Below are positions 43,396-49,508 of a stretch of DNA of 64,000 nucleotides, in pieces. The stretch spans positions 63,225 to 127,224 of the forward strand of contig NZ_LMQS01000001.1 of assembly GCF_001424665.1 (NCBI RefSeq), written 5' to 3'. Positions within the stretch are counted from its first letter, which is position 1, and each line of letters opens with the position of its first letter. The position numbers and the translations under genes are program-made. This stretch comes from Methylophilus sp. Leaf416. GTDB taxonomy: Bacteria > Pseudomonadota > Gammaproteobacteria > Burkholderiales > Methylophilaceae. A model generated the notes under the pieces. That model saw only the letters and a list, made by a program, of their open reading frames with translations. It had not been told where the DNA came from and searched no databases.

Positions 43396-46300
43396 TCAGG
43401 CATTATAAAGGATTTTGACATTTTCTTTTGACAACCAGCCCTGTAAATTCAGTAGCAGGTCATCGTGTAACACCACTTGCCAGTCATCGCCCAGCATCAG
43501 GCTAACCTGGGCTGACTGGTTATGGTAATCCACTTTGATCGGACAGCGTTTTTGCTCTTCATTGGCATAGCGATAAGGCGTCAGCACTGTCATCAATCGT
43601 TGCAGGTCGGATTGGCCGTTGCAACTCAGGGTTAACATCTGCGCAAAGCGGTTGCGCACGGCAGCAAGATCATATAATTTTCTGGCACTGACGCGAATAC
43701 CGCCGGAAAACTCGTCATTGGAAATACGCCCCTCGACAATCAATAACTGGTCTTCCTTGATCCACTGTGCGTGTTGCATCAGCAATTCAGAGCCCACAAC
43801 CACATCTGCTCTACCGACCGCATCATCCAGGGTGACGATGGCCATTTTGCCACGCTGGGTCATGCGTACCCGCACGCCCATCACCACACCCGCGAGCAGC
43901 TTAGGCTCATTTTGCGGTGCGAGCTCTCCCAGGTTGCCTTTGATAAACGGCCCCAACTGTGATTTATAGCTCAGGTAAGGATGCCCGCTGAGGTAGAAAC
44001 CCAGCGCTGCCTTTTCTTCCTGTAACGCCTGCTCAGGGCTCCAGGGCGTGACTTCAGGCAGTTGATGCTGTGTCTCTACCACACCGCCAAACAGGCAATC
44101 TTGCCCGGCATGCGCGGCTCTTTGCTCAGCCGCACTGATAGCCCCATCCAAACCTGCCAGCAACGCAGCACGATTTGGCTCAAGCTTATCAAAAGCACCC
44201 GCCCTAATCAGTGATTCCATCACACGCCGGTTCACTTTGCGCAAATCCAGGCGCTGGCAAAAATCAAAGATATCCTTGAATGGTCCGTCGGCTTCGCGCG
44301 CAGCGACGATCAAATCAATCGCCGCGCCGCCTGTTCCCTTGATTGCACCCAAACCATACAAAATCTGCTGGGCACTCATAGGCTTGAATTGATAAATGCT
44401 GGCGTTCACATCCGGTGGCAATACTTCCACATGGTTGCCGGCACAATCATCAAAAAACGTATGCACGTTATCGGTGTTATTCATGTCCGCAGACATGGTC
44501 GCGGCAAGAAATGCGGCCGGATAATGTGCTTTCAGGTAAGCGGTATGGTAAGCCACCAACGCGTAAGCCGCGGCGTGCGACTTGTTAAAGCCGTAACCGG
44601 CAAACTTTTCCAGCAAGTCAAACAGGTCGTTCGATTGCTGCAAGGTCAATCCATTTTTAAGCGCGCCTTCATTAAAAATTTCACGCTGTATAACCATCTC
44701 TTCAGGTTTTTTCTTACCCATGGCGCGTCGCAACAAGTCAGCACCGCCGAGACTAAACCCAGCCACTACCTGCGCAATTTGCATCACCTGTTCTTGGTAA
44801 ACGGCAATACCATAGGTTTCTTTCAGGATAGATTCTGTAGATGCATGCGGATACTCAACTCGCTGAGTACCATGTTTACGACGGCAGAAGTCTGGAATGA
44901 GGTCCATAGGGCCAGGTCGATACAGCGCTACCAGCGCGATAATATCTTCAAACAGGTCTGGCTTGGCCTGCTTCAACATATCCTTCATGCCGCGCGATTC
45001 CAGCTGGAATACCGCAGTGGTATTGGCTGTTTTCAGCAGATGGTAACTGCGCTTGTCATCCAGCGGAATGGTTTCAAAGCTTAATGGCGGTAACTGCTCT
45101 TGCGCGCGCTGCGCATTGGCATTTTCTAAAGCCATATTGAGGATAGTCAGTGTGCGTAAACCTAAAAAGTCGAACTTGACCAGACCGACTGCTTCGACGT
45201 CATCTTTATCGTACTGGCTAACCAGGCTGTCGCCATTAGGCTGGCAATAAACCGGGGAAAAGTCTGAAATCTTGCCTGGCGCAATTAGCACGCCACCGGC
45301 ATGCATACCGATATTTCTTACCAAACCCTCCAACCGCAAAGCCAAAGAAAGTAATTCTGCGACCTCTTCTTCTTTTTCGCGGCGTTCCTGAAGTTGCGGT
45401 TCTTTTTCAAGTGCGGATTCAAGAGTAATGCCCAGCTCAAGCGGAATAAGTTTGGCGATGCCGTCTACAAAATTAAATGGCAGATCCAGTACGCGGCCAA
45501 CGTCGCGGATCACCGCCTTGGCGGCCATGGTACCGAAGGTGGCGATTTGGGATACCGATGCCAGGCCATATTTGTTTTTAACGTAATCGATGACGCGATC
45601 ACGCCCTTCCTGGCAGAAGTCAATGTCGAAGTCCGGCATCGAAACCCGCTCAGGATTGAGGAAACGCTCAAACAGCAGGTTATATTTCAGAGGATCAAGG
45701 TCAGTAATACCAAGGCTGTAGGCGACTAAAGAGCCTGCACCAGAACCCCGGCCAGGCCCCACCGGCACGCCATTATTTTTAGACCAATTGATAAAATCGG
45801 CCACGATAAGGAAGTAGCCAGGGAAACCCATCTGGATGATAATGCCGCACTCAAACTGCAGGCGCTCTTCATATTCAGTGCGCTTCTGCTCGCGTTTTTC
45901 CTCATCGGGGTACAGGTAAAGCAGCCTCTTTTCCAATCCCTGTTTTGACTGGTCAATTAAGAAAGCTTCCAGACTTTCACCGTTCGGTGTGGGGAAGTCA
46001 GGCAAATAACTCTTGCCCAAAGTCAGTGCCAAGTTGCAGCGTTTGGCAATTTCCACTGCGTTTTGCAGAACAATCGGCATGTCTGCAAACAAGGCCTGCA
46101 TCTCTTCCTGGGTTTTGACATATTGGGATGCGACGAAGCGCTTGGGCCTGCGCTTGTCTGCCAGCACATACCCTTCAGCAATACAGGTACGCGCTTCGTG
46201 CGCCATAAAATCATCAGGTGTTTGAAACTGGATCGGATGTGTCGCCACCAAAGGTAAATCGAGTTGCTGGGCAATGAAGGCTGTTTGCTGTATTAATTGC

Positions 46301-46875
46301 TCCTGGGCACGCGACTCGGGGCTCCCGGCATCGTGCACACGTTGCACTTCCAGATAATACCGCCCCTGGAACACTTCTGCCCAATGCTGCGCGGATTGCA
46401 ATGCCAGTGCCTGGTTACCAGCTTGTAAAAGCTGGCCGATATCCCCGGCATTAAAGCCTGACAACATCAACAGGCCGGCATTTTTCTCTTCCAGCCACTC
46501 TGGTTTTAATTCTGCCCGTTCACGGTATTGGTTTTCAAGATAAGCGCGGCTCAACAGCTCACATAAATTGCGATAACCCTGCTGGTTTTGCACCAGCAAT
46601 AACATGCGGTGTGGCTGGTCGCGCTGTATGGTGTTTTCTACCCAAACATCGCAACCCACTATTGGTTTCAGGCCTTTGCCACGTGCAGAATTATAGAATT
46701 TGACCGCGCCAAAAAGGTTGGCAAGATCGGTCAAAGCAAGCGCCGGCATGCCATCCTGCTTGGCCGCTTTGACGTAATCGCCAATGCGCACGGTGCCGTC
46801 CACAATGGAATATTCACTGTGACAACGCAGGTGAATAAATGCGGGTGATAACGGTGGAGTTTGTGGCGATTCCAT
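43396..46875 (-). CDS. dnaE: DNA polymerase III alpha subunit
   Basis: 1159 residues, nearly identical in length to E. coli DnaE (1160). N-terminal PHP domain ([19 protein letters not shown]), the C-family polymerase core with [14 protein letters not shown] and the catalytic aspartates in [10 protein letters not shown] near residue 410, a helix-hairpin-helix region (AGAFDKL) and C-terminal OB-fold plus tau-binding region. It is the replicative polymerase. First gene of dnaE-accA-tilS, divergent from the thiol-peroxidase pair. Confidence 0.97.
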
Positions 46876-47059
46876 AGGGTTATTTTACCCGCCATCGACT
46901 TTTTTGTACCCATCCGAAATATAAATAATCTGGTTGACAGCGCTGAATCGCCGCCCAATCAAGGCTTAATCCATGGTCTTAACATATGCAAAAAGGACTT
47001 AAGTCCATCATGAATATGCACTATGATGTCAGGCTTGTTGATAATTAGGCTTGTTTGAT

Positions 47060-47566
47060 ATGTCGCACGCTATTTCATTACTTGATGAGCCTATTCTGAT
47101 AGAAGACAATTTGCCGAGTGTGGGCGATATTTTGCCGTTCTTCCAGCTCGTGAATCACTTACTGGAAGACATTACCCTGGAATCCTTTCAGGGCAAACGC
47201 AAGATCCTGCATTTCTTCCCTGGTATTGATATCCCAACCAGCGCGCACAGCGTGCGTACATTGGATAAGCTTGGGAAAAGCTTATCCAATACAGTGATCC
47301 TGAATATTTCACCAGATCTGCCATTTACAATGACACGCTTTGCCGAAGCCGAAAATTTAACGCATAGCATCAACCTGTCTACCCTGCGTGGACGCGATAT
47401 GTTTAAAAACTATGGTGTACTGATTATGTCCAGCAAACTGGCGGGCTTACCGGCGCGGGCACTGATGGTGGCGGATGAGAATGACAAGATCTTGCATGTG
47501 GAATTAGTAAATGACTTGACCACTGAGCCAGACTTTGGCGCTGCCCTTAACCTGCTTGCGCGTTGA
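47060..47566 (+). CDS. Cysteine-less Tpx-like (thiol peroxidase fold) protein
   Basis: 168 residues from ATG 47060, with an AGG about eight bases upstream. It aligns along its whole length with the tpx product encoded next door, but has no cysteine at all. The peroxidatic Cys of PTCATS is Ser61 (IPTSAHS), and the resolving Cys is Ala95 (RFAEAE). The core FPGID and Arg of SVRTLD are kept, and the frame is intact, so this is a maintained paralogue rather than a decayed gene. It cannot reduce peroxides by the Tpx mechanism. Possible roles: partner or regulator of Tpx, or a chaperone or sensor. Gap to tpx is 86 bases. Confidence 0.85.
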   Translation: MSHAISLLDEPILIEDNLPSVGDILPFFQLVNHLLEDITLESFQGKRKILHFFPGIDIPTSAHSVRTLDKLGKSLSNTVILNISPDLPFTMTRFAEAENLTHSINLSTLRGRDMFKNYGVLIMSSKLAGLPARALMVADENDKILHVELVNDLTTEPDFGAALNLLAR

Positions 47567-47652
47567 TTACCTTATTTTTTATAAGGTTGATTGCCACCGC
47601 ATGAAGCGCTACAGTAGCTACTTTTAACACTTAACCCGTTTTGGAGAACACT

Positions 47653-48153
47653 ATGGCAAGCGTAACGCTTAAAGGTAACCCGGTCGCTGTTGGCGGAAAA
47701 TTTCTGGCAGTAGGTGATACCGCACCTGACTTTCAATTGGCGGATGCTAAGCGCAACCTGGTAGGCCTGGATGCCTATGCTGGTAAACGTAAAGTGCTGA
47801 ATATTTTCCCTAGCATTGATACGCCGACTTGTGCTACTTCTGTGCGCACCTTCAATAAAGAAGCCAGTAAAGCCAGCAATACCGCCGTATTGTGCATTTC
47901 TGCAGATTTGCCATTTGCACAAAGCCGTTTCTGCGGCGCAGAAGGTTTGGAAAATGTAGTGACTTTGTCGACTTTCCGTGACACAGAAAAATTTGCCACC
48001 GACTATGGTGTTTTTATCACTGACAGTAGTCTGGCTGGCTTAACAGCCCGTGCTGTGGTTGTGCTGGATGAAAACAATAAAGTACTTCATAGCGAGTTAG
48101 TAAGCGAAATCGCTAACGAGCCTAATTATGAGGCTGCCTTGGCCGTTCTGTAA
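47653..48153 (+). CDS. tpx: Thiol peroxidase Tpx (atypical 2-Cys peroxiredoxin)
   Basis: 166 residues from ATG 47653, which has GGAG six bases upstream. The in-frame TTG four codons earlier is part of that site. Peroxidatic Cys60 ([14 protein letters not shown]) and resolving Cys94 (SRFCGAEG) are both present, with an extra Cys81. It reduces hydroperoxides with thioredoxin in the cytosol or periplasm. It follows a Cys-less paralogue on the same strand and is ended by a strong terminator. Confidence 0.95.
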
Positions 48154-48275: not shown

Positions 48276-49508
48276 TTAAACACGCTTAAACAACAAGCTA
48301 CCATTAGTTCCACCAAAGCCAAAGTTGTTTTTCAAGGCATATTCAATCTTCAAATCACGTGCTGTGTTGGCACAATAATCCAGATCACATTCGGGATCCT
48401 GATTGAAAATGTTAATGGTTGGTGGCGATACCTGATGGTAGATTGATAACACCGTAAATACCGACTCCAAGCCACCTGCACCACCCAGTAAGTGACCAGT
48501 CATTGATTTAGTAGAGTTAACGACCAAATTATAAGCATGGTCGCCAAAAGTAGCTTTAATCGCATTGGTTTCGTTGGCATCACCCAAAGGTGTTGAAGTG
48601 CCATGCGCATTCATGAACTGTACCTGGTCAGGGCTCACGCCTGCATTTTTCAGTGCATTGACCATGGAGCGGCGTGGGCCGTCCATATTGGGTGCAGTCA
48701 TGTGATATGCATCGGCACTCAAACCATAGCCTGACACTTCAGCATAAATTCTTGCGCCACGTGCTTTGGCATGCTCGTACTCTTCCAGCACCAATACTCC
48801 AGCGCCTTCCCCTATGACAAAGCCGTCACGGTCTTTATCCCAGGGACGACTTGCCGTCGCCGGATCATCATTGCGGCCAGATAAGGCGCGCGCAGAGGCA
48901 AAGCCCCCTACGCTCAGCTCTGTAATGGCTGCTTCTGCACCGCCAGCAACCATGACATCCGCATCACCATATTCAATCATACGTGCTGCTTCACCAATGC
49001 TATGCGTGCCAGTTGTACAGGCAGTCACAATCGCAATATTTGGCCCTTTCAGGCCCAACATGATCGACAGGTTACCGGAAATCATATTGATAATAGTGCC
49101 AGGAATGAAGAATGGCGAGATTTTGCGCGGGCCACCATCGTCGTAATTGTCGTTGGTTGACTCGATCAAACCCAAGCCACCAATACCCGAACCAATGGTG
49201 ACACCGATGCGCTCGGCATTGGCTTCTGTCACTTCAAGACCGGAATCCTTGAAAGCTTCCAGGCCAGCTGCCAGGCCATACTGGATAAATGTATCCATGC
49301 GGCGGGCATCTTTGGCCGGGATAAAGTCTTCAGCATTAAAGCCTTTGACTTCACCGGCAATTTGCGATGCAAATGGCGTTGGATCAAATTTGGTTATACG
49401 GGCAATGCCTGATTGACCAGCGATAAGATTGTCCCAGGCGTTCTGGTAACCAATCCCTACTGGAGACACCACGCCTAAGCCAGTTACTACTACTCTGCGT
49501 TTGGTCAT
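48276..49508 (-). CDS. fabF: 3-oxoacyl-ACP synthase II (FabF)
   Basis: 410 residues. Thiolase-fold condensing enzyme with nucleophile Cys164 ([10 protein letters not shown]), the two histidines in [11 protein letters not shown] and [10 protein letters not shown], and the C-terminal [12 protein letters not shown]. It elongates acyl-ACP with malonyl-ACP, including the palmitoleate to vaccenate step. Last gene of the fatty-acid cluster, 51 bases after acpP. A hairpin (49515-49540) covers its likely ribosome-binding site. Confidence 0.96.

Follow-up and report, generated by a model that had tools for sequence, protein, structure and literature searches.

Trees of the sequences indicate that the peroxidatic cysteine of the thiol peroxidase Tpx is lost in two independent origins, and the copies that lost it are found directly beside a live tpx in 41 of 42 loci (16 of 16 in one clade and 25 of 26 in the other). 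One of the two cases is in Methylophilus, where the upstream gene of a tandem pair has serine at the peroxidatic position. We tentatively propose that at least two bacterial lineages have independently made an old Tpx isoform a dedicated non-catalytic subunit of the adjacent live Tpx. For the Methylophilus gene, we consider it a real possibility, just short of an even balance, that the product is a non-catalytic Tpx subunit that pairs with and tunes the live Tpx. The gene is called tpxS here, a name coined in this analysis for the Ser-type upstream gene; CP and CR denote the peroxidatic and resolving Cys positions, and copies without the peroxidatic Cys are referred to as dead.

The window, which is the whole 64,000-nucleotide stretch of DNA that was analyzed, carries the pair on its plus strand with tpxS upstream and a gap of 86 nt. 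The pair, its neighbors and the tpxS codons considered in this work are as follows, the two dead clades being the Ser-type of Methylophilus and a Gly-type clade described further on.

43396-46875, minus strand: dnaE, DNA polymerase III alpha, the divergent neighbor, which adjoins the pair in all 16 Ser-type genomes
47022-47027, plus strand: TATGAT, -10-like by eye, inside a block conserved across the 13 Ser-type upstream regions aligned (of 16)
47060-47566, plus strand: tpxS, Tpx-like gene without the peroxidatic Cys; 168 aa from an ATG start, Cys-free, and above the thiol peroxidase equivalog cut-off
47228-47230, plus strand: tpxS codon 57, Asp, which in oxidised Yersinia Tpx forms a salt bridge between the subunits; invariant throughout the two dead clades
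47231-47233, plus strand: tpxS codon 58, ATC, Ile; the residue is Thr in 15 of the 16 Ser-type genes and in all 150 live sequences
47240-47242, plus strand: tpxS codon 61, AGC, Ser, in the peroxidatic Cys column
47336-47338, plus strand: tpxS codon 93, Arg, cross-dimer partner of Asp57; invariant in both dead clades
47342-47344, plus strand: tpxS codon 95, GCC, Ala, in the resolving Cys column (Cys 10, Tyr 2, Lys 2, Ala 1 and Leu 1 among the 16 Ser-type)
47387-47389, plus strand: tpxS codon 110, Arg, which in Yersinia Tpx bonds the main chain of the partner subunit at 125/126/128; invariant throughout the two dead clades
47456-47458, plus strand: tpxS codon 133, the active-site Arg; retained in 16 of 16 Ser-type genes
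47587-47615, plus strand: TTGATT-17-TACAGT in the tpxS-tpx gap, a possible tpx promoter by eye, inside a block conserved across those 13 species
47653-48153, plus strand: canonical tpx, 166 aa, with Cys60, Cys81 and Cys94 and the Shine-Dalgarno sequence GGAG
48276-49508, minus strand: beta-ketoacyl synthase (fabF type), the convergent neighbor, matched beside 13 of 16 Ser-type pairs

A preliminary description of this DNA had noted two adjacent frames that align along their length, and the two proteins share 45% identity over 165 aligned positions, far beyond chance. The alignment also bore out its placement of Ser61 and Ala95 of the upstream product in the peroxidatic and resolving columns and its canonical tpx directly downstream, in which Cys60 and Cys94 are present. 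Both products scored above the Pfam Redoxin cut-off, and on the NCBIfam thiol peroxidase profile (NF001808, cut-off 123) they reached 157.6 bits for tpxS, in a match spanning residues 4-166, and 241.9 bits for tpx. The "Arg/Thr core" that had been called retained is kept as far as Arg133 is concerned (Pro54 is also retained), but Thr58 is replaced by Ile in the window protein, within the stretch PGIDIPTS. Thr58 is part of PxxxTxxC, which we take to be the active-site motif. The label "cysteine-less" proved to suit the window protein but not the clade, since just 4 of the 16 Ser-type proteins have no Cys at all; ten have Cys95, and the other two have only Cys3 or Cys163. By this alignment, the trait that defines the Ser-type clade is the change of the peroxidatic Cys to Ser and not the absence of all Cys. 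Residual 1-Cys peroxidase activity through Cys95 or another Cys would have a basis in the ten Cys95-bearing proteins, three of which additionally have Cys103, but with no Cys in the window protein and three others, only Cys3 or Cys163 in two more and Cys95 missing on several separate branches, we find it scarcely credible.

We searched 187 genomes of the family, of which 22, the window's included, belong to genus group g1, taken as Methylophilus. The two Tpx genes lie side by side in 21 of the 22 genomes, so that the order proposed for checking, tpx-like followed by tpx, is kept in every genome having the genes; no Tpx was found in the remaining genome, G070, which is 88% complete. CP and CR are both present in the downstream tpx of all 21 tandem genomes, and CP of the upstream gene is Ser in 16 and Cys in 5. 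Orthologues with Ser at CP thus occur in 16 genomes of the genus, and the gene extends beyond a single strain.

A tree built from 75 Tpx joined the 16 Ser-type proteins in one group (100/99) with a stem of 0.56 changes per column; one member, G076, has a long branch of 1.68. Because the Ser-type proteins form a single long-stemmed group, the peroxidatic Cys was lost once in Methylophilus, and the variation at position 95 shows that the resolving Cys was lost later on several branches. Related to the Ser-type in the tree are the Cys-type upstream genes, together with the Tpx from genera g7 and g19; the downstream tpx is on another branch. In g7 and most g19 genomes, the Cys-bearing relative of the Ser-type is the only Tpx match. 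On this tree, the upstream gene is an old Tpx isoform with Cys-bearing relatives in other genera. We rejected a fresh tandem duplication of the neighboring tpx, because the upstream genes cluster with the Cys-bearing Tpx of those other genera. All 16 Ser-type pairs are located beside dnaE and all five Cys-type pairs beside one gene family, the tested member of which is a FIST protein; with a dnaE context in one type and a FIST-type context in the other, the pair has stayed together while its surroundings differ.

The second case came from two Deefgea records among loci retrieved by similarity, L058 (2256-2798) and L065 (2258-2800), in which a Tpx-like gene with Gly at CP lies upstream of a normal tpx. 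Searching 399 genomes from the order, we recovered Gly-type relatives in families f5, f22 and f32, so that this form is present in at least three other families; of the genomes listed with a match, 10 of 12, 10 of 10 and 4 of 5, respectively, carry them. We read 26 Gly-type loci, made up of 24 from these three families (L139-L162) and the two from Deefgea. Gly is at CP and Cys is absent from CR in all 26, Arg133 is lost in all 26 and Thr58 in 24, and D57, R93 and R110 are retained in every one. The live tpx is directly downstream in 25 loci, with a gap of 16-17 nt in three f32 loci and of 90-193 nt elsewhere, except for 33 and 451 nt. The exception is genome G341 (L161, 1501-2010), where the dead Gly-type gene runs directly into a DUF3025-like gene; no live Tpx was found in this draft (95% complete, 680 contigs). 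In 25 of 25 loci examined the Gly-type pair comes after a gene of a single family, whose one tested member is DUF3426, and in 12 of 25 a DUF3025-type gene (one member tested) follows it. The f14 orthologues have both Cys, are solitary and, with likeness judged by eye, stand after a DUF3426-like gene and before a DUF3025-like gene; Cys-bearing relatives of both dead clades therefore also occur as the sole Tpx match (g7 and most g19; f14). It appears that a second tpx came to lie beside the old one and that the old one then lost its chemistry. In the tree, the Ser-type and Gly-type dead groups stand apart, each at 100/100. A single origin of all dead Tpx was rejected (one joint clade, p-AU 0.0003).

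We looked for other copies of this kind. Among the best 30 loci from 21 other genomes with more than one Tpx-like match, none was a CP-less copy. Distant second Tpx-like copies from other families of the order (L196, L197 and L198) keep CP and have Ala at CR, and a tandem Tpx pair in G881 (L195, 1501-1995 and 2025-2519) has CP and CR in both genes, with His54 in the first. A class-level search returned a Tpx match in 179 of 369 genomes, and sequences were read from five genomes with two matches; further CP-less Tpx may exist elsewhere in the class.

The supposition that tpxS is maintained and not decaying agrees with what we found in the Ser-type genes. All 16 frames are open and about full length (166-175 aa), and none of the scattered frameshifts that would speak for decay was found among the 16. 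By the NG86 method, which is unreliable for distant pairs and was therefore applied only to pairs with dS of 0.05-1.5, median dN/dS was 0.064 for the Ser-type genes (11 of 120 pairs usable) and 0.032 for their tpx (60 of 120 pairs). The corresponding values were 0.039 for the Cys-type upstream genes (1 of 10 pairs) and 0.033 for their tpx (3 of 10), and 0.23 for the Gly-type (145 of 325) and 0.18 for their tpx (141 of 300). We rejected the view of tpxS as a strain-specific oddity or pseudogene, since 16 genomes carry open Ser-type genes under purifying selection. At codon 61, 11 of the Ser-type genes use AGC and 5 use AGT, a silent change only, and Ser61 is invariant in all 16 while positions 59, 60 and 95 drift. 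The net charge of the Ser-type proteins is -6 to -10, that of the Cys-type upstream proteins 0 to -2 and that of tpx -2 to -4.

Expression signals differ between the genes. A Shine-Dalgarno sequence stands before 2 of the 16 Ser-type genes, all 5 Cys-type upstream genes and all 21 tpx, and as the Ser-type genes are mostly without one, the tpxS product may be made at a low level. Binding to the anti-Shine-Dalgarno was good for the Gly-type leaders, with a median of -9.05 kcal/mol compared to -2.85 kcal/mol for the Ser-type. In the 13 of 16 Ser-type species aligned, tpxS and tpx are each preceded by a conserved block of their own, and from these alignments they seem to have separate upstream blocks rather than to form one operon. 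A consensus promoter scan of the window did not return the conserved upstream blocks and gave two promoter-like sites elsewhere, against 2.4 expected; the promoters of tpxS and tpx are for this reason by-eye assignments.

We considered whether the old copy lost its chemistry through redundancy once a second tpx was adjacent, and is now a vestige in slow decay. The Ser-type proteins evolve faster than tpx (median dN 0.193 compared to 0.049; 54 of 168 invariant columns compared to 119 of 166), 14 of the 16 genes are without a Shine-Dalgarno sequence, G076 has its long branch, and catalytic loss is seen in tandem arrangements in all but one of the dead loci, all of which would fit such a course. 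However, the open full-length frames, a dN/dS of about 0.06, the silent-only change at codon 61 and the same outcome reached twice, in one case across three further families, make slow decay improbable. Maintenance under selection, together with the separate origin in another bacterial group, suggests instead that the dead copies have a job of their own.

To see what the dead copies kept and lost, we compared both dead groups at the 69 columns whose conservation reaches 95% or more among 150 live Tpx. Twenty-six columns are kept in both dead groups, 20 are lost in both, 9 are lost in the Ser-type only and 14 in the Gly-type only. Those lost in both include C61, C95 (in part in the Ser group) and many columns around them, and those kept in both include D57, R93, R110, Y118, G119 and G129; D57, R93 and R110 do not vary in any of the 16 Ser-type or 26 Gly-type sequences, nor in any of the 150 live rows. 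Pairwise identity within the CR helix (88-103) averaged 0.59 and 0.58 in the Ser and Gly groups, compared to 0.87, 0.96 and 0.85 in the Cys-bearing relatives, the downstream tpx and all live sequences. In the same order, segment 104-121 gave 0.87 and 0.91 compared to 0.81, 0.86 and 0.63, and segment 122-133 gave 0.90 and 0.85 compared to 0.80, 0.93 and 0.65, so that in these two segments the dead groups fall inside or above the span of the live sets. Overall divergence is not equal among the sets, which are therefore best compared by how identity shifts from one segment to the next; by this measure both dead clades have relaxed the CR helix and kept the dimer-loop segment tight. Three columns nearly fixed in live Tpx have changed alike in the dead clades: F68 to Leu (15 of 15 Ser, 25 of 26 Gly), N69 to an acidic residue (14 of 15 and 22 of 26) and V135 to Leu (14 of 15 and 22 of 26).

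The retained residues can be placed on the structures of Yersinia Tpx, for which, as for the other sources below, we draw on excerpts of the paper. R110 bonds main chain 125/126/128 of the other subunit, D57 and R93 bridge the subunits in the oxidised protein, the reduced dimer is without salt bridges, and the active-site cleft is formed by loops of both subunits (PMC3288085, excerpt). The D57-R93 bridges belong to the oxidised state; the dead protein cannot itself be oxidised. Retention of D57, R93 and R110 could instead reflect a need in a dead homodimer or in folding.

The preliminary description had supposed that the fold is retained, and a predicted model of the window protein (pLDDT 92.5) matches solved Tpx structures closely, the top match having a Z of 29.9 with 167 aligned residues and an rmsd of 1.2. 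An earlier model built from 9 sequences had a pLDDT of 58 and was discarded. The five top-scoring structures, at Z 28.4-29.9, are reduced Tpx and Cys61Ser mutants, and oxidised E. coli and Yersinia Tpx match at a lower Z of 22.8-24.8. The model fits a protein locked in the reduced-like form, with a preference for reduced forms that is partly built in because the model has no disulfide.

The engineered Cys61Ser Tpx proteins (PDB 2yjh, 3hvv and 4af2) have the same substitution at the same position as the tpxS protein; they are laboratory point mutants, whereas the change in tpxS is natural, old and followed by further changes around the site. The Yersinia Cys61Ser protein is described as inactive and reduced-like, dimeric in solution and in the crystal, and monomeric on a gel, which its authors ascribed to the loss of two salt bridges (PMC3288085, excerpt). 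Since it ran only as a monomer on the gel, a Ser61 subunit may pair less firmly. These mutants also bear on the idea that Ser61 is itself catalytic and that tpxS encodes a new enzyme with serine or other chemistry on the peroxiredoxin (Prx) fold. The invariance of Ser61 amid drifting positions and the retention of R133 and mostly of T58 are in line with it, but the mutant is described as catalytically inactive (PMC3288085, excerpt), the window species has Ile58, the parallel clade has Gly at position 61, and no acid-base partner was noticed in an unsystematic look, so that we regard catalysis by Ser61 as highly improbable.

The arrangement that we propose is a mixed dimer. The tpxS protein, presumably devoid of peroxidase activity given its missing Cys, would keep the Tpx fold and dimer surface and pair with the Tpx encoded next door. 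Only the live subunit would turn over, and the dead subunit would supply the partner-side wall of the live subunit's peroxide pocket. It might tune substrate choice, rate or resistance to over-oxidation, or it might cap active Tpx. We infer this mixed complex and its effect on Tpx from the two origins, the adjacency to live tpx and the retained contacts of the oxidised dimer, which are the strongest points in its favor; a non-catalytic partner of Tpx was among the readings offered in the preliminary description, and we prefer it mainly because of the independent second case. Against it stand the dead gene of G341, with no live Tpx found, the scarcity of Shine-Dalgarno sequences before tpxS and the separate upstream blocks in place of one operon. 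Hetero-oligomers of Prx are also judged likely restricted to the Prx1/AhpC types (PMC13038412, excerpt), which counts against pairing of this kind.

The main rival is a dead Tpx homodimer with a new job, such as a chaperone, a scaffold or a small-molecule sensor in the old peroxide pocket, for which contact with Tpx is unneeded. The Ser-type gene is under selection of its own, G341 keeps a dead gene in the apparent absence of a live one, the Ser-type proteins are more acidic than the Cys-type upstream proteins, their pocket remains in that P54, R133 and mostly T58 are kept, and some peroxiredoxins act as chaperones apart from their peroxidase action (PMC7435893, excerpt). However, a free-standing function would have no need of the live tpx found next to nearly every dead gene, and a pocket function common to both clades is unlikely because the Gly clade lost R133 and mostly T58. 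We consider the homodimer unlikely overall, though worth keeping in view beside the mixed dimer.

The tpxS protein has the fold, the length and R133, P54, D57, R93 and R110 in common with Tpx, the atypical 2-Cys thiol peroxidase (NF001808/PRK00522; Yersinia and E. coli structures). Unlike Tpx, the window protein is without the peroxidatic Cys, the resolving Cys and Thr58 and, on these grounds, would be unable to run the known Tpx cycle. With its catalytic residue lost, its frame intact, its purifying selection and its presence beyond one strain, tpxS is by its sequence a pseudoenzyme. Among the papers listed by searches of the open-licence PMC literature we recognised no report of a natural bacterial peroxiredoxin pseudoenzyme or of a natural Tpx of the tpxS sort, and found no paper on Methylophilus and thiol peroxidase. 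Two candidate precedents were rejected: PMC6617597 (excerpt) concerns an engineered nematode mutant, and PMC7435893 (excerpt) names pseudoenzymes and peroxiredoxins separately. In the yeast Tsa1-Tsa2 hetero-oligomer, two paralogous Prx of one cell assemble, as we propose for tpxS and tpx, but they are of the Prx1/AhpC type and eukaryotic, and both natural subunits are catalytic (PMC13038412, excerpt). The excerpt of that source mentions no Tpx hetero-dimer. Dead paralogues that regulate live enzymes are already a known kind: the trypanosome AdoMetDC prozyme, itself catalytically dead, pairs with its live paralogue and regulates it, though it belongs to an unrelated enzyme, and its complex has been solved and its effect explained (PMC5201418, excerpt).

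The window protein and all four Gly-type proteins tested pass the thiol peroxidase equivalog cut-off, so the annotation names dead proteins as enzymes, and a half-dead Tpx dimer would escape notice in databases, since its dead subunit continues to be labelled "thiol peroxidase" by the profile. If the proposal is true, the asymmetric, half-dead dimer would be the first hetero-dimeric Tpx within the literature searched. The dead clades would be a natural system, ready to hand, for testing partner control in Prx dimers, and the repeated natural loss of CP with the dimer residues retained would demonstrate a selectable role of the Tpx fold beyond peroxide chemistry.
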